Source: Ruegeria sp. A3M17 (GTDB lineage Bacteria > Pseudomonadota > Alphaproteobacteria > Rhodobacterales > Rhodobacteraceae). From it: a stretch of DNA of 64,000 nt. Shown in pieces: positions 32,424 through 55,486 of the stretch. The notes under the pieces are model-generated. The model was given only the letters and a program-made list of their open reading frames with translations. It was not told the origin of the DNA and ran no database searches. A program made the position numbers and the translations under genes. Each line of letters begins with the position of its first letter. Within the stretch, counting starts at the first letter, position 1. Location: the NCBI RefSeq assembly GCF_003318255.1, contig NZ_QOCF01000004.1, forward strand, positions 1 to 64,000. The letters run 5' to 3'.

Positions 32424-33605
32424 ATGGGGGATCAGATGGCTGACGCACCAAAAGACACACCGGAACAGGGTCGCACACTAATCCGTAACATCGGTTTGCT
32501 TCTGACCGGTGATCTGGACTCGCCTATTGCGGACAGTGATTGCCTTCTCATCGAAGACGGGGTGATTGTGGGCCTTGAAGCCGGAGACGCGGATCGCATC
32601 ATCGATGCCTCTGGTTGTGCGGTCGCACCGGGCCTGATTGATGGCCATTGCCACCCGGTTTTCGGCGATTGGACCCCACGCCAAAGCCAGATCGGCTGGA
32701 TCGAAATGAATGTTAACGGAGGCGTCACAAGCTTTATTTCCGCAGGCGAAGTCCATCTGCCCGGTCGCCCCAAGGATGCCGAAGGCGTCAAGGCGTTGGC
32801 AATGGTGGCACAACGTTGCTATTCAAATTTCCGACCGTCCGGTGCCAAGGTTTTGGCGGGCGCACCGGTGCCGGAACTTGATTTCGATCGCGATTTTTAT
32901 GTCGCCGTCAAAGCGGCCGGTATCCGACATATTGGTGAGATCGGTCTTGGGACAGTTGCCAAGGGCCCGGACGCGGCACGCGTCACTGGCTGGTGTCGGG
33001 AATTGGGAATTGAAACCATTATGCATACTGGCGGCCCTTCGATTGCGGGCTCTCACGATGTTCGAGCAGCAGATGTGCTAGAGGCGCAACCGGATGTAGT
33101 CAGTCATATCAATGGTGGACCAACCTCAATTTCGCAGGATGAAATCCGAGAGCTTTGCCGCCACGCGAAAGGGGCGCTTGAAGCGGTACACAATGGCAAC
33201 GAGAAATCGGTAATTGTGACATTGGAGGGCGCGCTGGCCGAAGGCCGCCTTGCCGATTTCCTGATTGGAACAGATGCCCCGGCAGGTTCCGGCGTACAAC
33301 CGAACGGAATGCTGCGGATGGCAACTCTGCTGGCCAGTATTGGCGGATTGCCTGCTGAACAGGCGTGGTGCTGTGGCACCGGAAACGTGGCAAAGAGACG
33401 GGATCTTGCACAAGGGATCGTCGCACCAGGCCGCCCAGCCGATCTGGTTTTCATGGACCGCCCCGAAGGATCGGACGGTAAGAACGTTTTGGAGGGTATG
33501 GCGGTCGGCAACATCCCCGGAGTTGGGGCTGTTATGATTGATGGTAAGATGCGTACCGGACGGTCACGTTCGACCCCTCCTGCTGCGCGCGTGCCTGTAC
33601 TTTAA
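32424..33605 (+). CDS. ena: Enamidase-like metal-dependent amidohydrolase
   Basis: A 393-residue amidohydrolase that I recognise as close to enamidase of Eubacterium barkeri, which opens 1,4,5,6-tetrahydro-6-oxonicotinate to 2-formylglutarate. Binuclear-metal ligands are in place: His71 and His73 (DGHCHPVFGDWTPRQ), bridging Glu168 (GEIGLGTV), His197 (MHTGGPSIAGS), His224 (VVSHINGGPTSIS) and Asp280 (GTDAPAGSG). The C-terminus (GNIPGVGAVMIDG and SRSTPPAARVPVL) also follows enamidase rather than generic dihydroorotases. Single transcription unit with a MarR-type operator. The Hnr-like reductase that would make its substrate is 18 kb away. Match made from memory of the family, not by search. Confidence 0.85.
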   Translation: MGDQMADAPKDTPEQGRTLIRNIGLLLTGDLDSPIADSDCLLIEDGVIVGLEAGDADRIIDASGCAVAPGLIDGHCHPVFGDWTPRQSQIGWIEMNVNGGVTSFISAGEVHLPGRPKDAEGVKALAMVAQRCYSNFRPSGAKVLAGAPVPELDFDRDFYVAVKAAGIRHIGEIGLGTVAKGPDAARVTGWCRELGIETIMHTGGPSIAGSHDVRAADVLEAQPDVVSHINGGPTSISQDEIRELCRHAKGALEAVHNGNEKSVIVTLEGALAEGRLADFLIGTDAPAGSGVQPNGMLRMATLLASIGGLPAEQAWCCGTGNVAKRRDLAQGIVAPGRPADLVFMDRPEGSDGKNVLEGMAVGNIPGVGAVMIDGKMRTGRSRSTPPAARVPVL

Positions 33606-33627
33606 AGACACGGGAAACGTAAGTTTG

Positions 33628-33672
33628 AAGCCTAAGCCCGACTGCAAGATAGGCGGTCGGGCCTAGGGCTTT
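33628..33672. terminator. Terminator between enamidase and thiolase-like gene
   Basis: GCCCGAC (33636-33642) pairs with GTCGGGC (33656-33662); outer CCTA/TAGG extend the stem and CTTT follows. It sits 30 bases after the enamidase stop in a convergent intergenic region. Confidence 0.55.
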
Positions 33673-33810
33673 ACCAACAATACGAATTTGGATTGCCTGC
33701 TTTTGCCGCTGACTGACCCTTGTCGATAGTTCGTATTCCGCAGGTTGCGTTCTATTGCACTGGCAAAATCTCAAGCTTTGGGGCGCGCATTTGCCCCCCA
33801 TTTTGATCGC

Positions 33811-34959
33811 TTAAAGCGCAGCTTCGCTGCCCAGAACGGTCGTGAACTCGTTCGAGAACGTGCCGCCGTTGCCGTGGGCAATTGCAATATTCACATCGTC
33901 GATCTGACGATCGCCGCCGTCGCCCCGGATTTGGGTCGCAGCCTCGATCAGACAGAACAGGCCGTACATGCCGGGGTGTACGCAACTTAACCCGCCGCCA
34001 TTGGTATTTACCGGCAGCGAGCCACCCGGTGCGATGTTGCCATCGGCCACAAAGGCCCCGGCCTCGCCTTTTTTCACAAAGCCCATGTCCTCGAGGAACA
34101 GCAGCGTGTTGATCGTGAAGGCGTCATACAGCTCGACCACGTCAACGTCTTCGGTGGTGACGCCGGCCATCTCGAACGCGCGTTTCGAACTTTCGGTGGC
34201 ACAGGTAGTGGTCAGCGTGGCGGCCTGACTGATCTCGCGGTGGGAAATGGCGTTGCCGCCGCCCAGGAAATAGGCGGGCTTCTCTTGATAATCCTTTGCG
34301 CGGTCGGCCGAGGTAACGATGATCGCGGCCCCGCCATCCGACATCAGGCAACAATCCAGAACCGCCAGTGGATCGGCAACCATGGGCGAGTTCAGATACT
34401 CCTCCATGGTCAGGTCATCCTGCATTGTCGCATCGGGGTTCAGCTGAGCCCATTTTCGGGCCGAGATGGCGACATGGCCGAAATGCTCTTTGGGTACGTT
34501 GAACTCATGCATATAGCGTTGCGCGGTAAAGGCATATCCCGGCACCGGCACCATCGGTTCATAGGCGCGTTCCCATTGCGGGGTTTCGATCAGACCATTG
34601 AGGTCGCGCGCGGATTTAGCGTTCGAGCCGTAGCAGATCAGAACGTTTTTACACAGACCAGCCTGAATCGCCATGGTCGCCTCGACCAGATAGGACATGA
34701 AAGACGATCCGCCCACCATGTCCGAGTTCGCCCAGGTTGGTTTGATGCCCAGATACTCAGCGATCGAGAGGGTGGGGAAGAAGTGGTAGAAGGTGCCGCC
34801 ACAGACGCCGTCGATCTCGGACAGGTCCATACCTGCATCGGTCAGCGCGTTCTGCGTGGCTTTGGCGATCAGTTCCATTGGTGAGGTGTTGGGCGTTTTG
34901 CCCAGACCCCAATAGCCTTTGCCAACGATTGCGGATTTGCCGCGAAGTGAATGTGCCAT
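33811..34959 (-). CDS. Ltp2/SCP-x-type thiolase-like protein lacking the nucleophile Cys
   Basis: A 382-residue thiolase-fold protein. Where classical thiolases have the nucleophilic Cys it shows DMVGGSSFMSYLVEA, with no Cys. The C-terminal His motif is kept as LSCVHPGMYG. This pattern, with a DUF35 partner encoded 11 bases upstream, is that of Ltp2-type retro-aldolases from sterol side-chain degradation, which split tertiary 3-hydroxyacyl-CoA. It is annotated in relatives as acetyl-CoA acetyltransferase, but thiolysis seems unlikely. Last gene of ligase-ACAD-DUF35-thiolase. Confidence 0.85.
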   Translation of the reverse strand: MAHSLRGKSAIVGKGYWGLGKTPNTSPMELIAKATQNALTDAGMDLSEIDGVCGGTFYHFFPTLSIAEYLGIKPTWANSDMVGGSSFMSYLVEATMAIQAGLCKNVLICYGSNAKSARDLNGLIETPQWERAYEPMVPVPGYAFTAQRYMHEFNVPKEHFGHVAISARKWAQLNPDATMQDDLTMEEYLNSPMVADPLAVLDCCLMSDGGAAIIVTSADRAKDYQEKPAYFLGGGNAISHREISQAATLTTTCATESSKRAFEMAGVTTEDVDVVELYDAFTINTLLFLEDMGFVKKGEAGAFVADGNIAPGGSLPVNTNGGGLSCVHPGMYGLFCLIEAATQIRGDGGDRQIDDVNIAIAHGNGGTFSNEFTTVLGSEAAL

Positions 34960-38961: not shown

Positions 38962-38963
38962 TA

Positions 38964-40704: not shown

Positions 40705-41511
40705 TCAATCGACAAAGGCGCGTTCGACCACAAAAGTTGAAGGTTTGTTGTTCGCGCCTTCTTCCAGACCGAACCCTTCTAGCGCGGCCTTGGTATCCTG
40801 CAGCATCGCCATCGAGCCGCAAATCATTTCGCGATCTGTTTCAGGTGAGATTGGCGGCAGGTCCAAATCATCGAATACTTTGCCTGATGCCATAAGATCG
40901 GTGATCCGACCTTTGAACGGATAATCCTCACGCGTGAGGGTGCAGTAGTGCCGCAAATTCTGCGCCATCTCGCCCACCAACGGATCGGATTTGAGCGCCG
41001 CAACCAGTTCTTTGCCATAGTCCAGCTCGCCTTTTTCCCGACAGGTATGGGTCAGGATTACTTCGTCGAACTTCTCATAAGTTTCGGGGTCGCGGATCAG
41101 CGATGCAAAGGGCGCAATGCCGGTGCCGGTCGAAAACATCCAAAGCCGTTTACCCGGCAACAGCGCGTCATTGACCAGCGTGCCTGTGGGCTTTTTGCGC
41201 ATCAGAACCGTATCACCTTCGCGAATTTTCTGCAGGTGTTCGGTCAGCGGACCGTCGGGGACCTTGATCGAATAGAACTCGATCTCTTCGTCCCAACTAG
41301 GCGATGCGATGGAATAGGCGCGGCACACGGGTTTTTCTGCGTTCGGCAGGCCAATCATCACAAACTCACCTGACCGAAACCGGAAGGAAGCCGGGCGAGT
41401 GATGCGGAATTTGAACAGCCGGTCGGTATAATGCTTCACTTCGGTCACGGTTTGGGCGAACACGCCCGCCGGAATGGGGAATTCAGTTTTGGTCGTAGAA
41501 TCCAGCGACAT
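40705..41511 (-). CDS. fpr: Ferredoxin-NADP+ reductase
   Basis: A 268-residue FAD flavoprotein. RAYSIASPSWDEEIEFYSI has the RxYS FAD motif, WMFSTGTGIAPFASLIRDPE the NADPH phosphate loop (short: STGTGIAPFASL), MICGSMAML the nicotinamide-side Cys-Gly, and the terminus VERAFVD is that of bacterial Fpr. It passes electrons between NADPH and ferredoxin. It follows the ferredoxin gene by 9 bases, so the pair is a dedicated NADPH-to-ferredoxin chain, probably for the Hnr-like reductase (inference). Confidence 0.92.
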   Translation of the reverse strand: MSLDSTTKTEFPIPAGVFAQTVTEVKHYTDRLFKFRITRPASFRFRSGEFVMIGLPNAEKPVCRAYSIASPSWDEEIEFYSIKVPDGPLTEHLQKIREGDTVLMRKKPTGTLVNDALLPGKRLWMFSTGTGIAPFASLIRDPETYEKFDEVILTHTCREKGELDYGKELVAALKSDPLVGEMAQNLRHYCTLTREDYPFKGRITDLMASGKVFDDLDLPPISPETDREMICGSMAMLQDTKAALEGFGLEEGANNKPSTFVVERAFVD

Positions 41512-41520: not shown

Positions 41521-41850
41521 CTATTCTGCCGGGGCTTCAGACAAGAACGCCAGCTTACCTTCTTTCCCGTTCCAGTCATCTGCGTCAGGCATCGGGTCTT
41601 TCTTTTCGGTGATGACGGGCCACGCCTCTGCGTATTTGCCGTTTAGTTCGACCCACGTCTCCATCCCGTCCTCGGTGTCCGGGCGGATTGCGTCGGCGGG
41701 GCATTCCGGTTCACACACGCCGCAGTCGATGCATTCGTCCGGATGGATGACCAGAGTATTTTCCCCTTCGTAGAAGCAATCCACGGGGCAAACCTCCACA
41801 CAATCGGTGAATTTGCAGTTGATGCAGTTTTCGGTGACGACGTAAGTCAT
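41521..41850 (-). CDS. fdxA: 7Fe ferredoxin FdxA
   Basis: A 109-residue ferredoxin with the FdxA pattern: Cys9, Cys17 and Cys50 around a 3Fe-4S cluster, Cys21, Cys40, Cys43 and Cys46 for the 4Fe-4S cluster ([17 protein letters not shown] and [11 protein letters not shown]). The ATG at 41850 gives the invariant [10 protein letters not shown] start; the longer frame reads through its promoter. The promoter shows TTGACA (41902-41907), a 17-base spacer and AATATT (41879-41884) with the MarR-type operator covering the -10 region. Low-potential carrier for a reductase. Confidence 0.93.
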
Positions 41851-41859
41851 GGAGCGCCT

Positions 41860-41887
41860 ATTCGTTAGTATACGAACGAATATTCGT
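41860..41887. promoter_or_regulatory. MarR-type operator C (ferredoxin promoter), best-formed site
   Basis: 41860-41881 is a near-perfect 22-base palindrome with core CGTTAGTATACGAACG; 20 of 22 positions are symmetric. A second perfect palindrome ACGAATATTCGT (41876-41887) overlaps its right arm. The site covers the fdxA -10 element, which fits repression. Confidence 0.7.
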
Positions 41888-41964
41888 GAGAAATACCTGC
41901 CTGTCAATACGTTTCTGTACGAATGAAATATACCTGGGTCGGACTCTTGACCCAAATGTGAAAA

Positions 41965-41983
41965 AAGTTAGTGTACTAACGAA
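41965..41983. promoter_or_regulatory. MarR-type operator D (CoA-transferase promoter)
   Basis: AAGTTAGTGTACTAACGAA has inverted halves GTTAGT and ACTAAC around GT. It overlaps a plausible -10 (TAGTGT, 41969-41974) that is 16 bases after TTGACC (41947-41952), pointing rightward to the CoA transferase. Confidence 0.6.
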
Positions 41984-42120
41984 AATAATGTGCTTTGGCA
42001 GGGTGGTATGACAGACAATCTGGTTGTTGAAATATCGGGCTCATGCTGTTGGGCAACATGTAGGATTCGATCCCGGACGTAAACTGGCTGATCGCAACAG
42101 AGTTTTGAAAGGTTCAGACC

Positions 42121-43233
42121 ATGAGCACACCCTTGCACGGATTGAAGGTGATCGAGCTGGCCCGCATTCTGGCCGGACCCTGGATCGGGCAGACCTTGGC
42201 GGATCTGGGGGCAGACGTGCTCAAGATCGAAAGCCCCGAGGGTGACGATACGCGCAAATGGGGCCCTCCGTTTATCGAGCGTGCTGGCGACAAGACAGCT
42301 GCATATTTCCACGCGGCCAATCGGGGCAAAGACAGTATCGCATTGGATTTCCGGGATGAGGGTGATCGGGCTAAGTTGCTGGATCTGATCCGCGATGCGG
42401 ATGTGCTGATCGAAAACTTCAAGGTTGGGGGGCTGAAGAAATTCGGTCTGGATTATGACAGCGTCAAACAGATCAACCCCCGGCTGGTGTACGCGTCCGT
42501 CACAGGGTTTGGTCAGGATGGGCCCTATGCCCATCGGGCGGGGTACGATTTTCTGATTCAGGGCATGAGCGGGATCATGGACCTGACGGGCGACCCCGAG
42601 GGAGAGCCGCAAAAGATCGGCGTTGCCTTTGCCGATATATTCACGGGCCTCTACGGGGTGATCGGCATTCAGGCTGCACTTGCTGAACGTGAGCGCTCGG
42701 GGCAGGGACAGCACGTGGATCTGAGCCTGCTGGATTGCATGACGGGCGTTTTGGCCAATCAGGCGATGAATTATCTGGCCTCGGGTACGTGCCCAACGCG
42801 ACTGGGTAACGCCCATCCCAATATCGTGCCTTATCAGGTGTTTCCGGTGGCGGATGGACACATCATCATCGCCTGTGGGAACGACCGGCAATATGCAAGC
42901 CTGTGCGAAATACTAGGCCTGCCGGGGTTGATCAACGATACACGGTTCATGTCCAACGCGGATCGTGTGGAAAATCGCGCTGCGTTGACTGAATTGCTGA
43001 CGAGTTCCTGTCTGGAATGGACCAAGACCGATCTGTTGGCGTCCCTTGAACAATACGGTGTGCCCGGTGGTCCGATCAATTCAGTGCAAGAGGCGCTGAA
43101 CGACCCGCAGGTTCAGCATCGCGAGATGCAGATTAACCCGGAAGGCGTGCCCGGTCTGCGCACTCCGATCCGGTTTTCCCGGTCTGAATTGCAGTTGGAC
43201 AAGGCGTCGGCCAAACGGCCTGTCAAATCATGA
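42121..43233 (+). CDS. CaiB/BaiF-type (class III) CoA transferase
   Basis: A 370-residue family III CoA transferase. GLKVIELARILAGPWIGQ at the N-terminus, LADLGADVLKIESPEGDDTR, NRGKDSIALDF and the catalytic Asp in HVDLSLLDCMTGV are all standard. It moves CoA between carboxylates, for example from succinyl-CoA to a dicarboxylate such as glutarate. It would be a way to activate the acid released by ring opening. The leader between operator D and the ATG is ~140 bases. Its 3' end overlaps the convergent marR gene by 6 bases. Confidence 0.9.
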   Translation: MSTPLHGLKVIELARILAGPWIGQTLADLGADVLKIESPEGDDTRKWGPPFIERAGDKTAAYFHAANRGKDSIALDFRDEGDRAKLLDLIRDADVLIENFKVGGLKKFGLDYDSVKQINPRLVYASVTGFGQDGPYAHRAGYDFLIQGMSGIMDLTGDPEGEPQKIGVAFADIFTGLYGVIGIQAALAERERSGQGQHVDLSLLDCMTGVLANQAMNYLASGTCPTRLGNAHPNIVPYQVFPVADGHIIIACGNDRQYASLCEILGLPGLINDTRFMSNADRVENRAALTELLTSSCLEWTKTDLLASLEQYGVPGGPINSVQEALNDPQVQHREMQINPEGVPGLRTPIRFSRSELQLDKASAKRPVKS

Positions 43234-43653: not shown

Positions 43654-43674
43654 GACGGCTCCTGCCTGATTCAA

Positions 43675-44427: not shown

Positions 44428-45193
44428 GGGCGCTCTCCGCTTCAAAGACTGAGCCACCGCCCAGATATACTTCTTGGACCAACGGGTTGGTGCGGATTTC
44501 AGACCCTGTGCCTTCGGCGATCAACTCACCCCGGTTCAGGACCAGAATACGATGGGCATGGGCAAATACGACGTCCATGTCATGTTCGGTGAACACAACG
44601 CTTACGCCGCCTTTAGCCACGATTTCGGCAGTCAGCGCCATCAGCGCAAACCGTTCGGACGGTGCCATGCCCGCCGTCGGTTCGTCCATCAGCAGAAGGG
44701 CGGGCTCATGCGCCAATGCAATCGCCAGTTCCAGCCGTTTTAGATCGCCATAAGCCAGTTCTGAACATGCCCGCCCAGCCTGATCCTGCATCGAGACCAG
44801 TTCCAGCAACGCCATTGCTTCGTCCACAAACATCCGCGTCGCCCGGGAAAACAGGTCGAACACCCGCCGGTGATGCGAGATCAGCGCCATCTGGACGTTT
44901 TCCACAACGGTCATAGACAGGAAGGTCGCAGTAATCTGGAACGTTCGACCGACGCCCATACGCCAGATCTTGCGCGGTGGATGGCCGATCAAGGCCTGAC
45001 CGCGCAAGGATACCGAACCAGTATTCGGTTTATGATAGCCGCTCAACATGTTGAAGCATGTGGTTTTTCCTGCACCGTTGGGGCCGATCAAGGCAAGGAA
45101 TTCCCCTTCCTTCAGATCGAAATTCACATCCTTCACGGCCTGCACGCCGCCAAAGGACTTGGACAGGTTGCGGACTTCGAGAACGTTGGTCAT
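44420..45193 (-). CDS. livG: Branched-chain-type ABC transporter ATPase LivG (transporter 1)
   Basis: A 257-residue ATPase with Walker A GPNGAGKTT, the LivG-type ITATFLSMTVVENV segment, SELAYGDLKRLELAIAL as a degenerate signature and Walker B ALLLMDEPTAGMAP. The ATG at 45193 overlaps the permease stop (ATGA). The C-terminal helix carries the LivG tail. Confidence 0.92.
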   Translation of the reverse strand: MTNVLEVRNLSKSFGGVQAVKDVNFDLKEGEFLALIGPNGAGKTTCFNMLSGYHKPNTGSVSLRGQALIGHPPRKIWRMGVGRTFQITATFLSMTVVENVQMALISHHRRVFDLFSRATRMFVDEAMALLELVSMQDQAGRACSELAYGDLKRLELAIALAHEPALLLMDEPTAGMAPSERFALMALTAEIVAKGGVSVVFTEHDMDVVFAHAHRILVLNRGELIAEGTGSEIRTNPLVQEVYLGGGSVFEAESAHA

Positions 45194-47034
45194 GCCCGGC
45201 CTCCTTTCAGACCGCGCAACAGGCGTTGAATACCGCCCGCAATTCCGTCCGGTGCCACTAGGACAACGATTAGAATGATGGCCCCGAAGATGAAGCGCCA
45301 ATAGTCCAACCGCGTGACCCAATCCTCGATCAGGACAAAGGCACCGGCCCCCAGGATCGGACCCGCCAGCGCGTGAATGCCACCCAGAAGAACCATGATC
45401 AAACCGTCGATACTCAGCGCGATGCCGAGGCTGTCAGGAAAGACGCTGCCCTTCGAGAATGCAAAGACGACCCCGGCCAAACCGGCAAAGCCACCCGCCA
45501 GCACAAAGCCCATCCATTGATGAAACCGGGTATCGATGCCGATCGATTCAGCCCGGGTCTGGCTGTCGCGTATGCCGCGCAGGATATAGCCGAACGGAGA
45601 GAATGCCACACGACGCAGCGCCAATATTCCGCCGACACAAAGGACGAAGGCGATATAAAAGTATACCTTGTCAGAGCTGGCCCACTTCGCAGGCCATACG
45701 CCAAGGATGCCATCATCCCCGCCGGTAAATCGCTGCCATTGGAACGTGACACCCCATAGGATCTGGGCCGCGGCCAAGGTCAACATGGCAAGGTAAACGC
45801 CCGACAGCCGAACACAGAACCAGCCGAAGAACAGCGCTGCCATAGCCGCACAAACCGGGCCGAAAAGCATGGCCGAGATCATGCCGAGCCCAAGGAATTT
45901 GACCGCCATCGCGGCACCATAGGCACCAACGCCGAAATAGGCGGCATGTCCGAAACTGACCATTCCGCCAACACCCATCATAAAATGCAGCGACACGGCA
46001 AATAGCGTCGCGACCATCACATCGACCATCAGGACCGAGGTGAAATCAGCAGTTAACAATGGGCTAAGGGCCAGAACCAGTAGCGCAGCCATCAGCACCA
46101 TTGCTGATTTCTGATCCATTAGCGCCAGTGGTTGGTCCGGTTCTTCCGGCGCGCCTTTTTCGCTGCCTGGTTTGCCAAACAGCCCATGCGGGCGGAAGAT
46201 CAGGACAATCGCCATGATGATGAAGGGCAGTACGATTGAGATCTGCGGGAAGATCAGGATGGCAAACGCGTTCAGGACTGAGATCAGAACCGCCGCCACA
46301 AACGCGCCGGACACGCTGCCCATACCGCCAATGACAACGACGACGAAGGCCTCACCGATGATGGACAGATCCATCTGTAGCGACACCGCCTCGCGTGGGA
46401 TTTGCAGCGCGCCGCCCAATCCAGCCAGGAATGAGCCAAGAACGAATGCTGCCGAAAACAACCAGGCTTGATTGACGCCAAGCGCCCCGACCATCTCGCG
46501 GTCTTGGGTTGCAGCACGCACCAGAACACCCCATCGCGTTTTGTGAAACAGCAGCCAGATTGCCAACAGGACGACCGGCCCGATAGCAATCAAGGCGAGG
46601 TCATATTCGGGAATTGGTTCTCCCATGATGCGAACCGCACTATCCAACCCCGGCGCGCGCGGGCCCAGAAGGTCCTCTGCGCCCCAGATCGCCAGCGTGC
46701 CATCCTGAAAGATCAATACGACGCCAAACGTTGCGACCAGTTGGAACAGCTCGGGTGCGTGGTAAATGCGGCGTAGGATAGTGAGTTCGATGATCAGGCC
46801 GATCACCCCGACGATCATTGCCGCCAAAATGACGCTGACCCAAAAGCCAAGGATGCTGCCGCTCCAGAGCGTGACCAATGTGTAAGCGAGATAAGCGCCG
46901 ACCATGTAAAACGAGCCATGCGCAAAGTTCACGATCCGCGTGACACCGAAGATGATCGAAAGCCCGGATGCAATCAGGAAAAGCGAGGAAGCGTTCGCCA
47001 ATCCAGTCAGAAGCTGTGCAAAATAGAACCCCAT
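45190..47034 (-). CDS. Fused LivH-LivM permease (transporter 1)
   Basis: A 614-residue permease that joins both subunits in one chain. The LivH part (~1-290) has GLSIIFGVTRIVNFAHGSFYM and FVVVVIGGMGSVSGAFV. The LivM part (~310-614) has GVGGMVSFGHAAYFGVGAYG, ESIGIDTRFHQWMGF and MVLLGGIHALAGPILGA. Between them is an acidic, Pro/Glu-rich cytoplasmic linker (EKGAPEEPDQPL). About 16-18 membrane segments in all. The second transporter in this window keeps the two permeases separate. Confidence 0.92.
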   Translation of the reverse strand: MGFYFAQLLTGLANASSLFLIASGLSIIFGVTRIVNFAHGSFYMVGAYLAYTLVTLWSGSILGFWVSVILAAMIVGVIGLIIELTILRRIYHAPELFQLVATFGVVLIFQDGTLAIWGAEDLLGPRAPGLDSAVRIMGEPIPEYDLALIAIGPVVLLAIWLLFHKTRWGVLVRAATQDREMVGALGVNQAWLFSAAFVLGSFLAGLGGALQIPREAVSLQMDLSIIGEAFVVVVIGGMGSVSGAFVAAVLISVLNAFAILIFPQISIVLPFIIMAIVLIFRPHGLFGKPGSEKGAPEEPDQPLALMDQKSAMVLMAALLVLALSPLLTADFTSVLMVDVMVATLFAVSLHFMMGVGGMVSFGHAAYFGVGAYGAAMAVKFLGLGMISAMLFGPVCAAMAALFFGWFCVRLSGVYLAMLTLAAAQILWGVTFQWQRFTGGDDGILGVWPAKWASSDKVYFYIAFVLCVGGILALRRVAFSPFGYILRGIRDSQTRAESIGIDTRFHQWMGFVLAGGFAGLAGVVFAFSKGSVFPDSLGIALSIDGLIMVLLGGIHALAGPILGAGAFVLIEDWVTRLDYWRFIFGAIILIVVLVAPDGIAGGIQRLLRGLKGGRA

Positions 47035-47101: not shown

Positions 47102-48316
47102 TTATTCCGCCGGACGCAAGGCTGCTGCGTCGTCTTCGCTGGGCAAGTAATCAGCCCCGTCGGCATAGGACCAGTCGACCATAGACGGTTTGCCGTCGAC
47201 CGTTCCCGTCTTGCCGACATAGGCGCCCATCGTGGACTGATGGTCAGCCGCGCGGAAGGTGAAGGGGCCGGTTGGGCTGCTGTCGACGGTCAGGCCCTCC
47301 ATCGCGGCCAGCAGGGCGTCAGTGTCCGTGGAATCGGCTTTTTCCAACGCTGCGGCGATGGCGAGGATCGAGTTATATCCAACGATAGAACCGGTTTTGG
47401 GCGCTTCGCCGAACTTCTCGATATATGCATCAGCAAACGCCTTATGCTCGTCCGTTGTGATGTCGGTCGAAGGGTATCCGGTGACAATCCAACCCTCAGG
47501 AGCCTCAGCCCCCAGCGGGTCAAGATATTCTGGTTCTCCGGTCAGCAATGATGCAACGTCGCGATCCTCGAACAGGAACCGCAGCGAACCTTCGCGAACA
47601 AATTTGGCCAGATCGCCGCCGAAGGTCACGTTGTAAATCGCATCCGGTTTCGAGGCCTCAAGTGCGCGAACGGTGGAACCCGCGTCGATCTTGAACAGTG
47701 GTGGCCATTGTTCTTCGACAAATTCCACATCGGGGCGCAATTTGGTCAGTTCGGATTTGAAGGCCTTCACCGCATCCTGCCCGTAGGCGTAGTTCGGCGC
47801 GACAGTCGCCCATTTCACGGCGTCCAGCTTGGCTGCCTGTTCGGCCAGCATCGCGGCCTGCATGTGGGTCGAGGGGCGCAGACGATAGGTGAATTTGTTG
47901 CCTTTGGACCAGACAATCGCGTCGGACAGAGGCTCGGACGCGATGAACAGGACTTCTTTCTGCTTGGCAAAATCGGAAACGGCCAGACCGATATTGGACA
48001 GGAAGGTGCCAAAGATCAGAACTGCACCGTCTTTTGAGACCAGCTCCTCGGCGATCCGGATTGCGGTGGCTGGATCACCGGTATCATCCCGGCTGATCAC
48101 TTCCAGTTGCTTGCCGTCGATCCCGCCTGCGGCGTTGATCTGTTCGACCGCCAGTTGCCAACCTTTCTTGTAGGGCTCGGTAAAGGCGGGCAGACGGGTA
48201 TAGCTGTTCACCTCACCCAACACGATTGTGTCCTGGGCCAGGCTGACCCCAGCCGTCAAACCGGTGAAGGGCAGCGCCGCCAGCGCGCCCAGTACCGTGC
48301 GTCTGATCAGATTCAT
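47102..48316 (-). CDS. Liv-type ABC transporter substrate-binding protein (transporter 1)
   Basis: A 404-residue periplasmic binding protein (peripla_BP_6 type). The signal sequence MNLIRRTVLGALAALPFTG looks Tat-like (RR) or Sec; mature QDTIVLGEVNSYTRLPAFTEP. The ATG at 48316 follows GGGAGGAATTTGAA. Liv-type proteins bind amino acids, but also aromatic and heterocyclic acids. It sits 88 bases below the AA_synth genes on the same strand, so the ring-degradation genes and transporter 1 may be one transcript. Confidence 0.9.
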   Translation of the reverse strand: MNLIRRTVLGALAALPFTGLTAGVSLAQDTIVLGEVNSYTRLPAFTEPYKKGWQLAVEQINAAGGIDGKQLEVISRDDTGDPATAIRIAEELVSKDGAVLIFGTFLSNIGLAVSDFAKQKEVLFIASEPLSDAIVWSKGNKFTYRLRPSTHMQAAMLAEQAAKLDAVKWATVAPNYAYGQDAVKAFKSELTKLRPDVEFVEEQWPPLFKIDAGSTVRALEASKPDAIYNVTFGGDLAKFVREGSLRFLFEDRDVASLLTGEPEYLDPLGAEAPEGWIVTGYPSTDITTDEHKAFADAYIEKFGEAPKTGSIVGYNSILAIAAALEKADSTDTDALLAAMEGLTVDSSPTGPFTFRAADHQSTMGAYVGKTGTVDGKPSMVDWSYADGADYLPSEDDAAALRPAE

Positions 48317-48404
48317 TTCAAATTCCTCCCAATGATCATTGTTCACGGCCAGTTATCCCGGCTTCTTAATGTGTTGTCAGCCCTAAAGAGCGTAGCTGCT
48401 ACAT

Positions 48405-48986
48405 TCAGCGTAGCCCGTCTTTGCCTTCTGCCTCCTCATTCGTCAGTCCGCCTACACGCGGCAACGGTCGTCCGCTGTCGGTGACCGCAACTGCCACCAT
48501 GATCTCATTCGCACGGGGCGCGTCGTTCAACTGCACTTCGATGCCGTCAAAATGGCTGCGCACATAGGCCGCGTCCTTGTGACCAAGCGGTACGTCCAGT
48601 ACCTGCCCAGGGCTGCCCATCTTCTTTGACGAGGGCACCAAAGCGGCGCCTTTTTCGACTTCCTTGCGCAATGGCGCACCCAGTTTGGGGTGCAGAATGG
48701 CGGCGGCATGTTCCAGCTCGCCGTTCTCACCGACCATCGCCGATTTTCCATAACTTTCAGCCTGTTCCGGCGTGATGTTAAGGGCCTCGACGCAGCGGCG
48801 GCCCAGTAAAGCGCCCAACTCAGCCCCGGTTTCCATCAGCGGTGTCAGATCCTCGACATATTGCCCGGCAAAGGGGTTTTCGATCACGGCCACGGCCACC
48901 GCCTTGCGCGTGGCGGGCGAGATCGGGCGCCCTGCCTCGATATGGGTTTCTTCAACGTTGACTGCGATTTTGCGGATCTTTGTCAT
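48405..48986 (-). CDS. AA_synth (DUF1185, PF06684) family protein, copy 1
   Basis: A 193-residue protein of a family named amino acid synthesis but without proven reaction. Shared with the neighbouring copy are ENPFAGQYVEDL, GKSAMVGENGELEHAAA, LVPSSKKMGSPG, YVRSHFDGIEVQLNDAPRANE and the C-terminal GKDGLR (each also in copy 2 with changes). The conserved Glu-His, Ser-Ser-Lys-Lys and Arg-Ser-His-Phe clusters could line an active site. ATGA overlap with copy 2. Family co-occurrence with Hnr-like reductases suggests a step in heterocycle breakdown (inference). Confidence 0.85.
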   Translation of the reverse strand: MTKIRKIAVNVEETHIEAGRPISPATRKAVAVAVIENPFAGQYVEDLTPLMETGAELGALLGRRCVEALNITPEQAESYGKSAMVGENGELEHAAAILHPKLGAPLRKEVEKGAALVPSSKKMGSPGQVLDVPLGHKDAAYVRSHFDGIEVQLNDAPRANEIMVAVAVTDSGRPLPRVGGLTNEEAEGKDGLR

Positions 48987-49564
48987 CTTAGGCCGTCCTC
49001 TCCTTTGATGTCCCACGCCTCAAGCCCGCCCGAACGAGAATGCACCCGTGGTCCGGTTGTCATGACCAGTGAAAAAGCCAGCTCGCCCGCCCGGGGGGCG
49101 TCATTGCAGCCCACTTCCATGCTGTCGAAATGGCTACGCACATATGAGGCGTTGATATGCGTGATTGGCACATCCAGCCGCGCACCCACGCCGCCAACTT
49201 TTTTCGATGAAGGCACAATCGCGTTGGCTGTACCCAGCAACTGCCGCATCGCGTAACCACCAGGGGCGTGCCACAGCGCACCGTGTTCCAGTTCGCCGCC
49301 TTCGCCAACCAAGGACCCTTTGCCATACCCTTGGACGTTTTCCGGACCGCCTAACATGTCGATCAGGGTTTGCGCCATTTCCAAACCCAAAGGTTTGAGG
49401 TCTTCCATAAAGCCCTGAATCTCGGGTTCGTACCGGCCTGCAAACGGGTTGGCGATCACGGCCATTGCGGCCACCCGCACCAGCGGCGTGTCGGACAGCG
49501 GTCCGCCTTCGTGATAGATTTCTTCAAGCGAAAACAGCTTTTTTCGCAGCTGAACGTCAGGCAT
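48983..49564 (-). CDS. AA_synth (DUF1185, PF06684) family protein, copy 2
   Basis: A 193-residue paralogue of copy 1, with IANPFAGRYEPEIQGF, GKGSLVGEGGELEHGA, IVPSSKKVGGVG, YVRSHFDSMEVGCNDAPRAGE and GEDGLR. The two have the same length and are arranged head to tail, so they may form a hetero-oligomer or have split roles after duplication. Start at 49564 overlaps the UPF0280 stop by 8 bases. No signal peptide; cytoplasmic. Confidence 0.85.
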   Translation of the reverse strand: MPDVQLRKKLFSLEEIYHEGGPLSDTPLVRVAAMAVIANPFAGRYEPEIQGFMEDLKPLGLEMAQTLIDMLGGPENVQGYGKGSLVGEGGELEHGALWHAPGGYAMRQLLGTANAIVPSSKKVGGVGARLDVPITHINASYVRSHFDSMEVGCNDAPRAGELAFSLVMTTGPRVHSRSGGLEAWDIKGEDGLR

Positions 49565-50420
49565 ATTGTGGAACCTTCTGAGTGGTTGAGATCACCAATC
49601 GGGACGCGCCCGACTGGCAGGAGTGAGAGCCAAGAGACAGATGGGCGGCAGAGATCAAACCGCGCCCAAGCATGGTCTCGGCAGTGTTCAGGCCGTCTGA
49701 AATGGCATCTTGAATATCTTGGGCAGAGAGTTGGCCGACAGAAACCGGAACGGGCAGGTCGCCCAAATCGCTGTCATCGCGCAGTTGATTGGCCGGAAGG
49801 CGCCGGATGGCCGGATGCCCGGGCAGATCAACCGCATTGGCGATCAGCGTCGCTGCCACATCGGCCATTGCTGCGTTGCTGGCCAGCACTGTAACGCTGT
49901 CGGCGATGCCAAGGCTCAAGCTGCGTCCGCCGCGACCCGACGTGGCAATGCCACCAATCTTGTCGCTTGCACGGATAGCAATGCGGCCCAAGCTGCACCC
50001 GTCAAGCCCGCTCATGGCGACGCGGTAATTCTGGTCCGAACTCAGATGGACAGCAATATCTCCACCATTATTGACTGACGCGCGATCCAGAGGTGTGGCC
50101 TGAAGCATGGTTGCCAGTACTTCGTCCGCGACAGCTCCGGCAACGGCGGCCATGCGTGTAACAAACACGTTGGTATGAGGGCGCGCAGCCTCATCCATAC
50201 GGCGCGCCACCCGTCCGTGAGGGCGGGCGCATTCAGCGGTCATGGGCGTTTTCAACAAAGCCAGTTCATCCACCAAGCCCTGCAGCAAGGATTGGAACCG
50301 TAACTGGGCAGCCTCAAATGCAATATCTCGTGCCCCATCTGCCTCGACGATCAGGTCGATTGGGCCGTGTTGCAGATGCAATCTGCGACCACACGGCAAT
50401 ATGGCAGAGATGGGGTGCAT
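49557..50420 (-). CDS. UPF0280 (ApbE-like) family protein
   Basis: A 287-residue protein of the uncharacterised UPF0280 family, related in fold to the FMN transferase ApbE. Visible segments: GPIDLIVEADGARDIAFEAA, RMDEAARPHTNVFVTRMAAVAGAVADEVL (given in parts: HTNVFVTRMA, VAGAVADEVL), VNNGGDIAVHLSSDQ and SSHTAST-like GGRSLSLGIADSVTVLA. NNGGDIA is close to the ApbE flavin/metal motif. Starts at 50420, 6 bases after the Hnr-like stop. A role in flavin attachment or cofactor maturation of the reductase is a guess. Confidence 0.8.
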   Translation of the reverse strand: MHPISAILPCGRRLHLQHGPIDLIVEADGARDIAFEAAQLRFQSLLQGLVDELALLKTPMTAECARPHGRVARRMDEAARPHTNVFVTRMAAVAGAVADEVLATMLQATPLDRASVNNGGDIAVHLSSDQNYRVAMSGLDGCSLGRIAIRASDKIGGIATSGRGGRSLSLGIADSVTVLASNAAMADVAATLIANAVDLPGHPAIRRLPANQLRDDSDLGDLPVPVSVGQLSAQDIQDAISDGLNTAETMLGRGLISAAHLSLGSHSCQSGASRLVISTTQKVPQYA

Positions 50421-50426: not shown

Positions 50427-51920
50427 TTATGCTCCTTTCGCCCAGCGGTAATTTTTCGAAGACATGGGGTCGGGCTGGTTGTCGAACTGATCTACCTTGC
50501 GGGTTTCGTCCGAGATGACATCTGTAACTGGCTTGATCTCATCCATGTGCCCGCCCAGTGTGCCATAGTCGCTGACACGCATCGTGAATTCGATGGGGGC
50601 GACCAGCGCCGGGGTCGGAACGTATCCGAACGATCCCGTGGGCATGTCCAGAATGTCCACCATCACGGTGATGCCGCCACCGGGCCAAACATAGGCCTCA
50701 GCCCCACCGCAGGATACGAAGGTCAGCGAGTCCTTGACCGATTTCGTGAGGCGAACCGGGTTTTCCGTGACCCCCGCCCGCAGGCTGCCGCCTGCGCCGC
50801 CCATGAACAGAACCGAGCAAACCGAAGGTTCGCAGTTTTCGGCAATCAGCTCTGCAGATGCCTTCAGCGCCGGGGGAATCTCGACGGGCTGAGGTTGCAG
50901 CTCGGCATCCAGTTCAAAATAGCCATATTGTTCACCCGTGGTGGATACCATCAACAGGCTCATACCCTCACGCGAGAATTTAGGATTGAAATCGCCCAGA
51001 ATTTTCAGCGGATCCTCGATGTTTGTACCGCCCCAACCGGTGCCGGGCTCTGCGACCTGAAAATACCGACCCGGGGTGGAACGGCGGCCATTGATCTTGA
51101 TGCCCGTAGGTTCGACATCCAACAATTTACCGGCCTGATGTTCGGACAGAACGCCGGTGATGTGGTCGTCGACCACCACCACGTCATCCACGTGTTCAAT
51201 CCATTGCTTGGCGAACATCCCGATTGTGGCCGAGCCACAGCCCACCCGCATCAGTTTTTCTTCGACCCCATTGATGATGGGTGCTTTGCCGGCCTGAACA
51301 ACCACCGTGGTCTCATGTCTTTCATCGCCGATCACCATCTCGACGGCCTCTCGATTGCACAACCGAAGCAGGGCATCGCAGGTGATCCGGCCTTCTTTCT
51401 TTGTACCGCCGGTCAGGTGTTCCACACCGCCCAGCGACAACATCTTGGATCCGTATTCCGAGGTCATGACGTGCCCGACCGGCTCACCATTTACGCGGAC
51501 GACATCGCGTTCGTGGCCGATATGACGGTCGGTATCGATCTTCACCTTTACGCCGCAATACGAGAATATCCCCTCGGTCACGACGGTGACCATATCCACG
51601 CCCGCCACATCTTGGCTGACGATGAAGGGCGCGGGTTTGTAGTCGGGATAGGTCGTGCCGGCACCAACGGCGGTCACAAAGGGCCGTTTGCCCTGCACGA
51701 TGTCGCCGTCCCAATCTTCGGGGTCTTTGCCATCCTTTAAAAAGGGGACCAGGCGTGTGTCTTCTGTGCTTTCGATGATGGTCAGCGCATCCAGACGAAC
51801 CAGATCGCCACCATGGTTGGCATAGCGGTCGCAGGCCCCGATTTTTCCGTCTGCGATATAGCACATCACCGGGCAGGCGTCGCAGCGGATTTTTTCCGGT
51901 GTCGTGCGCTCAGTTGCCAT
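50427..51920 (-). CDS. hnr: 6-hydroxynicotinate reductase-like iron-sulfur protein
   Basis: A 497-residue protein of the family called 6-hydroxynicotinate reductase after the Eubacterium barkeri enzyme, which uses reduced ferredoxin to make 1,4,5,6-tetrahydro-6-oxonicotinate. The N-terminus has Cys13, Cys16, Cys20 and Cys30 (CxxCxxxCx9C), suited to a 4Fe-4S cluster. Gly-rich segments include VGCGSATIGMF, GWGGTNIEDP and FMGGAGGSLRAGVT. It overlaps the Mo-hydroxylase gene by 11 bases. A ferredoxin/FNR pair elsewhere in the island could feed it. Which ring it reduces is not known from sequence. Confidence 0.85.
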   Translation of the reverse strand: MATERTTPEKIRCDACPVMCYIADGKIGACDRYANHGGDLVRLDALTIIESTEDTRLVPFLKDGKDPEDWDGDIVQGKRPFVTAVGAGTTYPDYKPAPFIVSQDVAGVDMVTVVTEGIFSYCGVKVKIDTDRHIGHERDVVRVNGEPVGHVMTSEYGSKMLSLGGVEHLTGGTKKEGRITCDALLRLCNREAVEMVIGDERHETTVVVQAGKAPIINGVEEKLMRVGCGSATIGMFAKQWIEHVDDVVVVDDHITGVLSEHQAGKLLDVEPTGIKINGRRSTPGRYFQVAEPGTGWGGTNIEDPLKILGDFNPKFSREGMSLLMVSTTGEQYGYFELDAELQPQPVEIPPALKASAELIAENCEPSVCSVLFMGGAGGSLRAGVTENPVRLTKSVKDSLTFVSCGGAEAYVWPGGGITVMVDILDMPTGSFGYVPTPALVAPIEFTMRVSDYGTLGGHMDEIKPVTDVISDETRKVDQFDNQPDPMSSKNYRWAKGA

Positions 51921-54660
51921 CTGTCAATTCCTTGATTGCTGCGCGCATTTTTGCTGGCGTGGCGGGACTTTGGGTCAGTCGAACGCCGCAGGCGCGCTTG
52001 ATTGCGTTGAATAGGGCCGGGGCCGTGGGGATCAGCACGTGCTCTCCCAGGCCTTTGGCGCCATAGGGACCGTGGGCATCCTCTTCTTCGATGATCAGGG
52101 TTTCAATCGGAGGGATGTCACCAATGGTCGGGATCAGATAGTCATGCAGGTTCTCGGTGCGGCCGGGCAGGTACTCTTCCATTAGCGCCATGCCAAGACC
52201 CTGCGCGATACCGCCCTGTACCTGACCTTCGACCAGCATCGGGTTGATCGCCTTGCCAACGTCATGGGCGGCCACGAATTTAATCGGTTTCACCGTGCCA
52301 AGCTTTGTGTCCACCTCGACAACCGCCAGATGCGCAGCATAACCAAATTGAGCATAAGGTATCCCCTGACCGTTGTCGTCCAGCGGCTTTGTGGGCGGGT
52401 CATAGGTTTCTTCGGCGCGCAGCACGTAACCTTCTGCGTCGGGCTCCAGCACGGTCAGGTCGATAGAGTGTTGTTGCCCGTTGTCGTCCACCCCAATCGT
52501 TCCTGGGGTCAGGGTGATCACGGCGGCAGGACCGGCGTTCACGCGGGACAGAATCTGCGCGCGCATCGCTTCGCCCGACAGACGTGATGCACTGCCAGAG
52601 ACATAGGTCTGACGCGAGGCCGAGGTTTTGCCGGCATCCGGCGTGACATCCGTATCGGCCCCGATGATTTCGATCTGCGCAACCGGAACACCAAGCGCAG
52701 TGGCAAAGATCTGCGTGATTACCGTGTTTGCCCCTTGGCCAATATCCATAGCCCCTTGGTGCAGGACCAAACTGCCATCTGATCGGATGCCCGATTTGAT
52801 CGTCGACGGGTTGGGCAACGAAGTGTTGCCGCACCCGTACCAGCCGGCCGCCAGTCCAACGCCGCGCTTCAAGGTATTGTTTTGTGAGTTGAATGCTTGA
52901 ACCGATGCATTTTCTTCGACCCACGCGGGACGCAGCGCTTCGAGGCAGGCGCGAATGCCGACGCCCTGATCGAAGATCTGTCCGCAAACGGTGGGTACAC
53001 CGTTTTCCAGCGCATTGTTGATGCGGAATTCAAGCGCGTCGATGCCCAGCTTGTCCGCCAACTCGTCGAACAGGCATTCCTGCGCGATGGCCGATTGCGG
53101 AACGCCAAAGCCACGGAATGCGCCCGATGGCGGGCAATGCGTATGGATGCCTTTGGCTTCGGCGCGGTAGTCTGTGATTTTGTAGGGGCCTGAGGCATGC
53201 ACGGGCACCCGGTTGGCTACGGTCGGACCCCAGCTGGCATAGGCGCCTGTGTTGAACAGCCCGTCAAAAGTCATCCCACTGATACGACCGTCTTTGGTTG
53301 CCCCGATCTTGACCCGCAGGTCGGAAGGGTGGCGTTTGGTGGTGGACTGCATCGACTCGGTTCGGGAATAGGTCAGCCGCACCGGCTTGCCGGTTTTGAG
53401 CGCGGCAAGAGCCAGGTAAGGCTGCACCGAAATATCCAGTTTTGAGCCGAACCCGCCGCCGACTCCGGTCGGGGCAATACGGATCTGATCGCGCGGTATC
53501 CCCAGAATGATCTCCAGCGCGTCCAGGTCCATCACCGGAGCTTGCGTGCAGGCATGGACTTCGACCCGCCCGTTCACGATCTCGGCGAAACCGGCCTCGG
53601 GCTCGATATAGCCATGTTCGACAAAGCCCGAGCGGAAATGGCCTTCGACCACAACATCTGCGTTGTCCAACGCGGTTTCTGGTGTTCCGCATTTCACGAA
53701 ACCGGCACACATAACGTTTCCGTCGCGATCTGGGTGCAGCTGCTCGGCTTGAGGCGTCATGGCGTCGAGGGAGTCCAGCGCTGCGGGGCGTTCTTCCCAC
53801 GTTACCGGAAAATCTGCTGGATCGAATGTCGCCAGAACCTCGGGCAGCCCAATGATGGCGGCGACAGCCTCGCCACGGAACCGAGCCTCGGTTTCCGCAA
53901 AGACAGGTTGGTCGGCAAAGTCGGGAATGACGCCAAAGTTGTTGCGCCCGGAAATGTCGGCCGCGGTCAGGACTGCTTCGATCCCTGGGATCTTATTGGC
54001 CCAAGCGTCCAGATCGCCAAGTGTAAACCCGGCACGGTGGTAAGGGGAACGGATGACATGGATTTCCAACGTACCTGCCGGGGCAACATCATCGCCAAAA
54101 AGCTCCGTGCCTGTGACCTTGTCGTGCCCGTCCACGCGCCAGATGGCGTCGCCCGCGTGTCCCAGTGTTGCTTCGGGCAAAGCAGGCGCACCAGCGGCAA
54201 CAACGGCGTCGATAATCTTGCGATACCCGGTGCAGCGGCACAATACGCCGCCAAGGGCATCCTGGACCTGCTCATTGTTTGGCTCAGGTGTCTCGCGCAG
54301 CAAAGCGACAGCGGCGGTCATCATGCCGGGTGTGCAAATTCCGCACTGCGCCGCACCGTGGTTCTGGAAGCTGTCTGCCAAACGTTTGGCAATCTGGTCA
54401 TCCTGCGTCAGCCCGGACACCGTTTCCACAGACCGCCCAGTAGCCTGTTGTGCCGGAACCAGACAGGCGCAGACCGGATCACCATCGACCAGTACAGTGC
54501 AAGCACCGCAGTCGCCGGCATTGCACCCGATCTTGACGTCGCGTGCTGACAGCCGCTCGCGCAGCATTTCCGACAGGCGCTCACCCACGCGCGGCACCGC
54601 ACTGACGGGGTGGCCGTTCAGAGTGAATTCGGTCGTGAATTCATCAGCGCGTTTATCCAT
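51910..54660 (-). CDS. Molybdenum hydroxylase, fused [2Fe-2S] and molybdopterin subunits
   Basis: A 916-residue fusion of CoxS-like and CoxL-like parts of the xanthine dehydrogenase family. Residues ~8-160 bind two [2Fe-2S] clusters: Cys46, 51, 54, 66 (CNAGDCGACTV) and Cys106, 109, 141, 143 (CGICTPGM, CRCTGY). The rest is the Moco domain: GVGGGFGSKLD, GAFRGFGVPQ, QGAMDIGQGANTVI and the catalytic Glu in YGAKGLGEHVL. Such enzymes hydroxylate N-heteroaromatics with water, as in nicotinate to 6-hydroxynicotinate. The ATG at 54660 gives the normal N-terminus. It overlaps the FAD subunit gene by 8 bases. Confidence 0.9.
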   Translation of the reverse strand: MDKRADEFTTEFTLNGHPVSAVPRVGERLSEMLRERLSARDVKIGCNAGDCGACTVLVDGDPVCACLVPAQQATGRSVETVSGLTQDDQIAKRLADSFQNHGAAQCGICTPGMMTAAVALLRETPEPNNEQVQDALGGVLCRCTGYRKIIDAVVAAGAPALPEATLGHAGDAIWRVDGHDKVTGTELFGDDVAPAGTLEIHVIRSPYHRAGFTLGDLDAWANKIPGIEAVLTAADISGRNNFGVIPDFADQPVFAETEARFRGEAVAAIIGLPEVLATFDPADFPVTWEERPAALDSLDAMTPQAEQLHPDRDGNVMCAGFVKCGTPETALDNADVVVEGHFRSGFVEHGYIEPEAGFAEIVNGRVEVHACTQAPVMDLDALEIILGIPRDQIRIAPTGVGGGFGSKLDISVQPYLALAALKTGKPVRLTYSRTESMQSTTKRHPSDLRVKIGATKDGRISGMTFDGLFNTGAYASWGPTVANRVPVHASGPYKITDYRAEAKGIHTHCPPSGAFRGFGVPQSAIAQECLFDELADKLGIDALEFRINNALENGVPTVCGQIFDQGVGIRACLEALRPAWVEENASVQAFNSQNNTLKRGVGLAAGWYGCGNTSLPNPSTIKSGIRSDGSLVLHQGAMDIGQGANTVITQIFATALGVPVAQIEIIGADTDVTPDAGKTSASRQTYVSGSASRLSGEAMRAQILSRVNAGPAAVITLTPGTIGVDDNGQQHSIDLTVLEPDAEGYVLRAEETYDPPTKPLDDNGQGIPYAQFGYAAHLAVVEVDTKLGTVKPIKFVAAHDVGKAINPMLVEGQVQGGIAQGLGMALMEEYLPGRTENLHDYLIPTIGDIPPIETLIIEEEDAHGPYGAKGLGEHVLIPTAPALFNAIKRACGVRLTQSPATPAKMRAAIKELTDGN

Positions 54661-55486
54661 GGTGTTGTCCCGCCTCTGCGATTGCTCGGACACATTGCTC
54701 TGCCACCGCGTCCAGTCGGAATGCGGCGTCCCCACGGACGTCATCAATGGGGCTGAGCGGTGCTAAATGCTCGGATGAAACTTCAACCGTTTCAGGGGAT
54801 TTCCCGATCAAATCGGCTTCGAGCTGATCCAGCCTTTGTGCCACGGCTGACGCGGCCCCCACTGCGACGCGCGCATAGTTGATCCGGCGGTTTTCATTCA
54901 GGCCGATGATGACAGAAGTCATCGTGATCGAGATCACGAGGTACCGCCGCGCGCCGAGTTTTTCGAAATGTCCAACAGTCCCTTTGGGCGGATCGGGCAG
55001 GTAAATCGCGGTCACAATCTCATCGTCGGACAACGCCGTTTTGCGCACGCCAGTGATGAACTCTGACAGCGGAACCTCGCGAAAGCCACGGGCCGAGCCG
55101 AGCTCAACGCTGGCCTCCAGCGTCAGCAGCGGCGGCACGCCGTCAGCGGCAGGCGAGGCATTGCACAGGTTCCCTGCAATCGTGCCGCTGTTTTGGATCT
55201 GCAGGCTACCGACTTCCCGCGCAGCCATTTGCAGACCCCTAAATGCGACGGGCAGATCGGCCCGGGCAATGTCTGTCCAGCTTGTTGCGGCCCCGATTCT
55301 CCAACGGCCATCCACAAGGTTGATGCCCGAAAGACCATTGATGCGTGTGACGTCCAATATGTCAGTGTGCAGCTCATGACGCTGCCGGGATGGGAAAAAG
55401 TCAGTTCCGCCAGCGACAACCGTCAGATCATTGCTTGTCAGCAAATCAAATGCATCATCGAGCGTGTTGGGAGAGAGATACCGCAA
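54653..55486 (-). CDS. FAD-binding subunit of the molybdenum hydroxylase (CoxM-like)
   Basis: A ~277-residue FAD subunit. FAD motifs are LTVVAGGTDFFPSR and SGTIAGNLCNASPAADG; PLSEFITGVRKTAL and the C-terminal CO-dehydrogenase flavin domain follow. No ATG suits the N-terminus. I choose the TTG at 55486 (MRYLSPNTLDDAF), which has AGGA seven bases upstream. The longer TTG frame at 55525 would start inside MarR-type operator E. It passes electrons from the Fe-S clusters to NAD or another acceptor. First gene of the long leftward series. Confidence 0.86.
   Translation of the reverse strand: MRYLSPNTLDDAFDLLTSNDLTVVAGGTDFFPSRQRHELHTDILDVTRINGLSGINLVDGRWRIGAATSWTDIARADLPVAFRGLQMAAREVGSLQIQNSGTIAGNLCNASPAADGVPPLLTLEASVELGSARGFREVPLSEFITGVRKTALSDDEIVTAIYLPDPPKGTVGHFEKLGARRYLVISITMTSVIIGLNENRRINYARVAVGAASAVAQRLDQLEADLIGKSPETVEVSSEHLAPLSPIDDVRGDAAFRLDAVAEQCVRAIAEAGQHHG

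Follow-up and report, generated by a model that had tools for sequence, protein, structure and literature searches.

Nicotinate fermentation in Eubacterium barkeri is reportedly encoded by a gene cluster (Ndh, Hnr, Ena) described by Alhapel et al. in 2006, and its ring reductase Hnr is said to carry a covalent flavin. Here we analyze a related cluster of Ruegeria sp. A3M17, located in a 64,000-nucleotide stretch (the window; contig C1:1-64000); the genome assembly comprises 40 contigs and 4.44 Mb. Excerpts of PMC3511419 assign the reduction to 1,4,5,6-tetrahydro-6-oxonicotinate (route 3) first to E. barkeri and later to aerobic Azorhizobium, and describe a homologous cluster in the aerobe Bradyrhizobiaceae SG-6C, which degrades nicotinate with 6-hydroxynicotinate as a transient compound and whose Hnr is 42% identical to that of E. 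barkeri. The reductive opening of the ring in an aerobe, presented as a surprise in an initial annotation of this DNA, had thus already been reported; moreover, among 26 plasmid records carrying Hnr, 17 already name the gene 6-hydroxynicotinate reductase (3 give “hypothetical protein” and 6 are unannotated at that place). The new content of the locus is its orphan partners, UPF0280 and PF06684, not the reductive route itself.

We consider it rather probable that with this cluster an oxygen-using marine bacterium degrades a pyridine carboxylic acid by a reductive route, nicotinate being the likeliest substrate. The pathway type is supported by homology and gene neighbourhood, and, as judged from sequence, the cluster type is shared with nicotinate-growing SG-6C. 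A Mo hydroxylase, Hnr and a lactam-opening enzyme occur together in the genome.

The operon and its proposed route

The actual pathway unit is a minus-strand operon (55525-43726) together with a MarR regulator, a glutarate-type CoA-transferase and a ferredoxin/ferredoxin–NADP reductase (FNR) pair. The operon encodes, in order, the FAD subunit and the fused Fe-S/molybdenum cofactor (Moco) subunit of the Mo hydroxylase, Hnr, a UPF0280 protein, two PF06684 proteins and a HAAT-type ABC transporter. Beyond it lie MarR, the CoA-transferase gene on the opposite strand, and then a 7Fe ferredoxin and FNR. The UPF0280, PF06684, MarR and transporter genes were absent from the initial annotation, although they lie in the interval it covered (32424..55486).

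The Hnr-like ring reductase (50427..51920, minus strand), recognized by homology and conserved Cys residues, is the only Hnr found in the genome. It is 92% identical to the Hnr of Ruegeria arenilitoris, with which it groups in a quick tree (SH-aLRT 99), and 67–70% identical to Bradyrhizobium and Afipia homologues. The cluster site annotated as CxxCxxxCx9C (C13-xx-C16-xxx-C20-x9-C30) proved to be kept with all four Cys in 96/96 aligned homologues; Cys 122, 228 and 363 are likewise found in 96/96 rows and Cys 181 in 94/96. At the threshold of E≤0.001, Hnr gave no match in Pfam or NCBIfam searches, and its predicted fold, a poor model (pLDDT 61.0, 12 sequences), gave none in Foldseek. In a survey of 398 genomes of the phylum, representing 213 genera, Hnr (E≤1e-20) was present in 32 genomes and 16 genera. 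In Neorhizobium the neighbours of the Hnr-UPF0280-PF06684 core include genes annotated fpr and nicB (nicotinate dehydrogenase subunit B); in Pleomorphomonas one neighbour is annotated nicR. Through neighbourhood and annotation the Hnr family is tied to 6-hydroxynicotinate as its putative substrate. In one genome (G016:C1:2969811-2971207, L054) the hnr match lies in two pieces in adjacent frames, the gene being apparently split or frameshifted.

The Mo hydroxylase with fused Fe-S/Moco and FAD subunits, also annotated before, agrees with the open frames and Pfam domains. The FAD subunit (MoM, 54653..55525, minus strand) matches FAD_binding_5 (139.9 bits) and CO_deh_flav_C (33.9 bits), and the fused 2x[2Fe-2S]/Moco subunit (MoL, 51910..54747, minus strand) matches Fer2, Fer2_2, MoCoBD_1 and MoCoBD_2. 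Inspection of the translation indicated that MoL probably starts at ATG 54660 rather than at the start of the longest open reading frame (ORF). Its G-x-KG-x-GE motif, which presumably has a catalytic role, is kept in 65/65 homologues. The previously noted enamidase-like hydrolase (EnaB, 32424..33605, plus strand) aligns over residues 16-390 to 2VUN, the solved E. barkeri enamidase (320.8 bits, E=1.2e-94), and has the motifs HxH, GE-I-GLGT, HTGG, HINGG and GTDAP, which we take to contain the metal ligands. In the enamidase alignment HxH, HTGG and HINGG are found in 52/52 rows and the D-A/G-P type in 48/52.

The ferredoxin/FNR pair of the initial annotation is present as well. The 7Fe-type ferredoxin (41521..41955, minus strand; Fer4 and DUF3470) and FNR (40705..41511, minus strand; NF008178) are both second genomic copies, the other copies (77% and 62% identical, respectively) being located on contig C23. 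For comparison we used 100 Hnr loci, consisting of 80 named ones (the best 80 of 592 confirmed candidates) and 20 fetched regions, among which related species recur. An FNR gene is found in the Hnr locus of 23/80 named relatives; it adjoins Hnr in L035 and L037 and is present in the loci of L180 and L191.

An outlet over CoA-transferase, aldehyde dehydrogenase and beta-oxidation had also been proposed, of which only the first two parts fit. The family III CoA-transferase (42121..43233, plus strand; CoA_transf_3 413.5 bits) has the succinate–glutarate CoA-transferase NF052585 as its closest NCBIfam model (527.6 bits), and for this reason it fits a glutarate outlet. The aldehyde dehydrogenase (61003..62619, minus strand; Aldedh 297.5 bits), a candidate glutarate-semialdehyde dehydrogenase, lies outside the originally annotated interval, upstream of the operon together with a second HAAT transporter; R. 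arenilitoris (L058) has the same order and an 81% identical aldehyde dehydrogenase. The beta-oxidation block (33811-40628) was rejected as a part of the pathway: in a comparison of 111 loci at ≥45% identity, its thiolase, acyl-CoA dehydrogenase, acyl-CoA synthetase and SDR each had a match in a single locus (R. arenilitoris), and its enoyl-CoA hydratase in two.

On the basis of homology, the HAAT transporter would import the pyridine acid, and the Mo hydroxylase would add a hydroxyl group next to its ring nitrogen. Electrons would pass from NADPH over the cluster FNR and ferredoxin to Hnr, which would convert 6-hydroxynicotinate to 1,4,5,6-tetrahydro-6-oxonicotinate; the enamidase would then open this product to 2-formylglutarate and ammonia. 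Loss of CO2, for which the PF06684 pair are candidates, followed by aldehyde dehydrogenase and CoA-transferase, would lead to glutaryl-CoA, with MarR probably acting as the regulator.

Several results count against this assignment. The eight near-invariant Cys of Hnr are fewer than the twelve required by three all-Cys Fe-S clusters, the number we assume for the E. barkeri enzyme. Among PDB sequences MoL matches aldehyde oxidoreductase best (381.2 bits), the large subunit of E. barkeri nicotinate dehydrogenase reaching 240.5 bits, and the fused, two-subunit build of the Mo hydroxylase is unlike that of nicotinate dehydrogenases, so that it is not of the proven nicotinate-dehydrogenase type. FNR (125.1 bits, cut-off 390) and the CoA-transferase (cut-off 750) both score below the cut-offs of their models. 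The mismatch of the Mo hydroxylase weakens the claim on the substrate and leaves that on the chemistry untouched.

The transporter consists of a LivJ-like substrate-binding protein (47102..48346), a fused LivH/LivM-like permease (45190..47034), a LivG-like ATPase (44420..45322) and a LivF-like ATPase (43726..44457), all on the minus strand. The first two were identified as ORFs with annotated counterparts in L180 and L191 (after the cluster for the binding protein, at the same place for the ABC transporter permease), and the ATPases as ORFs by synteny. The MarR-family regulator (43228..43674, minus strand; MarR 42.3 bits) has homologues (≥35%, ≥80 amino acids) in 53/80 named Hnr loci. On a plasmid of Sulfitobacter mediterraneus the Hnr cluster includes a gene of the RibD_C/dihydrofolate-reductase family (L179:15535-16062).

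UPF0280, PF06684 and the exchange of ring openers

The UPF0280 protein (49557..50420, minus strand), which has an ApbE-like fold, is a candidate flavin-handling partner of Hnr. It occurs in the same 32/398 genomes as Hnr, always about 0.5 kb or less from it. A fold search found the double T-fold of ApbE, while the UPF0280 profile gave 2O34, a UPF0280 structure solved in 2006, as its only clear match among PDB sequences; the ApbE link thus depends on the fold search. Excerpts of PMC12052999 give the ApbE triad as Ser241, His257 and Asp285 (V. cholerae) and the target motif as D-x-x-[ST]-G-A-[ST]. In UPF0280 the Ser and Asp are kept by motif (Ser161, Asp187). No signal peptide was seen by eye in the 287-amino-acid sequence. 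The probable role of UPF0280 is to insert the flavin into Hnr or to protect it there.

Three observations speak against such a role: there is no His in region 162-174 (5 aligned rows), the ApbE target motif is found in 0/96 Hnr sequences, and UPF0280 is missing from at least one Hnr locus (L124, 21 kb). As the triad His is missing, UPF0280 was not filed as a member of the ApbE flavin transferases. That UPF0280 is no flavin transferase at all and uses its ApbE-like fold otherwise, for instance for nucleotide binding or for stabilising Hnr, has a real chance of being correct, if somewhat below an even one; the absence of both the general-base His and the target motif favours it, as does a UPF0280 relative in Methanosarcina acetivorans that scores below the curated cut-off. 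If UPF0280 does flavinate Hnr, this would be a new kind of flavin attachment. The literature searched, to which this negative is limited, gave no connection of UPF0280 or of PF06684 with Hnr, and the excerpts of PMC12746152 (riboflavin catabolism) and PMC7356986 have no bearing on Hnr.

The second orphan family is represented by two minus-strand genes, type AA1 (48983..49564, 219.2 bits) and type AA2 (48405..49016, 245.3 bits), both far above the PF06684 cut-off of 27; from inspection of its translation AA2 probably starts at ATG 48986 rather than at the longest-ORF start. Structures of this family were published in 2010 with function unassigned (PMC2954203). The family as a whole is present in 59/398 genomes, and therefore most of its members act elsewhere. 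AA2 (≥60%) is confined to 19/398 genomes, namely the 18 with an enamidase (≥50%), each of which has Hnr, and G386, in which HyuA/HyuB adjoin Hnr (L042). Two further genomes have a 41–42% enamidase relative without Hnr; this search scored 4 candidates per genome, so that misses are possible. In G123 and G194 the AA2-enamidase pair is on a different contig from Hnr, and three stretches in which Hnr is not close by (L175, L176, L178) have a PF06684 gene next to the enamidase relative. A strict link of AA2 to the enamidase was ruled out by 4/25 named genomes (L095, L099, L104, L107) with AA2 and without enamidase, all of which have HyuA/HyuB. As a guess, the PF06684 pair may be candidates for a step after ring opening, such as 2-formylglutarate decarboxylation. 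In the genome of L175 (G289, without Hnr), PF06684 and the enamidase relative (41%) adjoin an HpaB-type monooxygenase, MarR and a HAAT transporter (L175:4080-7662), a cluster which is possibly another N-heterocycle route.

Among the 100 Hnr loci, 54 have the enamidase, 13 Hyu genes and none both; 33 have neither, as judged within the stretch examined. The Hyu genes were confirmed by Pfam as Hydantoinase_A and Hydantoinase_B, and they adjoin Hnr where the enamidase is absent (L099:13636-17447, L104, L107, L190:14650-18443, L191:2522-6261). Along the Hnr tree the opener switches at least four times. The two openers exclude each other within a locus but not within a genome: Rhizobium rhizogenes (L115) combines Hyu genes next to Hnr with an enamidase at another site. 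This exchange marks ring opening as a swappable module, and the cluster offers testable roles for UPF0280 and PF06684, two orphan families that travel closely with the pathway.

Substrate of the pathway

For nicotinate speak the nicB and nicR neighbours in rhizobia, the physiology of SG-6C and the glutarate-type CoA-transferase. A rather unlikely alternative is that the substrate is an N-methylated phytoplankton pyridine acid, homarine or trigonelline, on which the same enzymes would act as N-methyl pyridone, with ring opening freeing methylamine for the N-methylglutamate pathway and, in some relatives, a Rieske oxygenase demethylating first. Most named Hnr loci are from marine Rhodobacterales, and R. 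pomeroyi, which quickly draws down homarine according to excerpts of PMC12817926, has the AA2 homologue SPO0826 adjoining the ABC transporter genes SPO0822-0825 (PMC2954203). A VanA-type Rieske oxygenase, a candidate N-demethylase for trigonelline or homarine, lies beside the cluster in 12/80 named Hnr loci (e.g., L180:16064-17131 and L191:14532-15602, from marine Rhodobacterales); the window's genome, on the other hand, has no close Rieske gene (best 37%). N-methylglutamate dehydrogenase participates in homarine catabolism, as stated in excerpts of PMC13390433. The genome itself encodes a gmaS-type synthetase (653.3 bits, cut-off 469.6), around which the genes resemble mgsABC by eye.

On this alternative, the homarine operon published in 2026 (Nat Microbiol 11:1531, cited in PMC13390433) may correspond to the operon described here or to the form of it that lacks the enamidase. 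Such a form is found in G194 (L046:5685-12761), in which MoM-MoL-Hnr-UPF0280-AA1-MarR, five genes and a regulator, occur with no enamidase in the stretch; their number and order fit homABCDER, the name of that operon, which makes an overlap plausible. Against homarine and trigonelline stand the nicotinate-type genes adjoining the same core in rhizobia and the glutarate CoA-transferase, which suits the nicotinate route better than 2-oxoadipate. Nicotinate is retained as the preferred substrate.

A wider model, which we regard as doubtful, would combine these elements: UPF0280 as a cytosolic ApbE-fold enzyme attaching flavin to Hnr by chemistry that needs no Thr/Ser motif, the PF06684 pair processing the opened ring, and swappable openers (enamidase or ATP-dependent HyuA/HyuB). 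Together these would give marine Rhodobacterales a modular pathway, operating aerobically, for the pyridine betaines trigonelline and homarine of phytoplankton. A marine form acting on homarine or trigonelline, if true, would explain how the ring of these abundant betaines can be opened with no oxygenase attacking it.

Origin of the enamidase and comparison with known systems

The initial annotation had placed Hnr and the enamidase in one pathway set. The families are as named, yet EnaB is separated from Hnr by about 17 kb and sits in an insertion of other ancestry. The DNA match to R. arenilitoris stops at 30932 and restarts at 33815, where the relative (L172) has 27 bp; the insertion of about 2.9 kb (30933..33814, plus strand) contains EnaB and a luciferase-like monooxygenase, the latter observed at 30829-32148. 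At the site of the usual enamidase (EnaA; 41927..42120) there are 194 bp, vs. about 1.3 kb with EnaA in R. arenilitoris (blastn to L058), and tblastn detected no trace of EnaA in these 194 bp. A quick tree unites EnaB in one clade (SH-aLRT 100) with Pararhodobacter oceanensis and a single metagenome genome; the stem of this clade is long, at 2.57 changes per column. The ancestries of the two genes thus differ, as Hnr groups with R. arenilitoris and EnaB does not. Of the two enzymes, EnaA is slightly closer to that of E. barkeri (355.3 bits, vs. 320.8 bits for EnaB). Given the insertion with EnaB, the empty EnaA site and the discordant trees, a foreign enamidase has probably taken the place of the usual one.

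Its distance from Hnr, its insertion shared with the monooxygenase and its long stem weigh against a place in the Hnr pathway and would suit a separate pathway of EnaB with that monooxygenase, but this is improbable, as EnaB is the single enamidase match in the genome (E≤1e-10), the usual enamidase is missing from its syntenic place, and both clade mates (L128, L137) have an Hnr cluster and this type of enamidase adjoining an AA2-type PF06684 gene.

The locus shares the Mo hydroxylase, Hnr and enamidase families with the E. barkeri cluster, the enamidase at the E-value given above for the solved enzyme. It differs in having a fused two-subunit Mo hydroxylase instead of a four-subunit one, an aerobic host, the UPF0280 and PF06684 genes, and an outlet probably over glutarate. 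The Azorhizobium caulinodans/SG-6C route employs a different Mo hydroxylase, of which only the small Fe-S part matches that of the window (31–37%). The Bradyrhizobium loci examined have one PF06684 gene and an enamidase of the canonical clade, whereas the window has two such genes and the divergent EnaB. With the flavin transferases ApbE/Ftp/FmnB, UPF0280 shares the fold and the FAD-site Ser and Asp motifs; it differs from them by the missing catalytic His and by having no visible signal peptide, and its partner Hnr by the missing target motif. AA2 belongs to the same family (PF06684 = DUF1185) as SPO0826 and BB2672, with 371.6 bits to 2QTP, assigned to R. pomeroyi SPO0826 from its length and a primer sequence in PMC2954203, and 116.3 bits to 3BYQ. 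The paper on these two proteins proposed a role in amino-acid metabolism from a neighbouring branched-chain amino acid-type transporter, whereas here PF06684 tracks the enamidase and Hnr.
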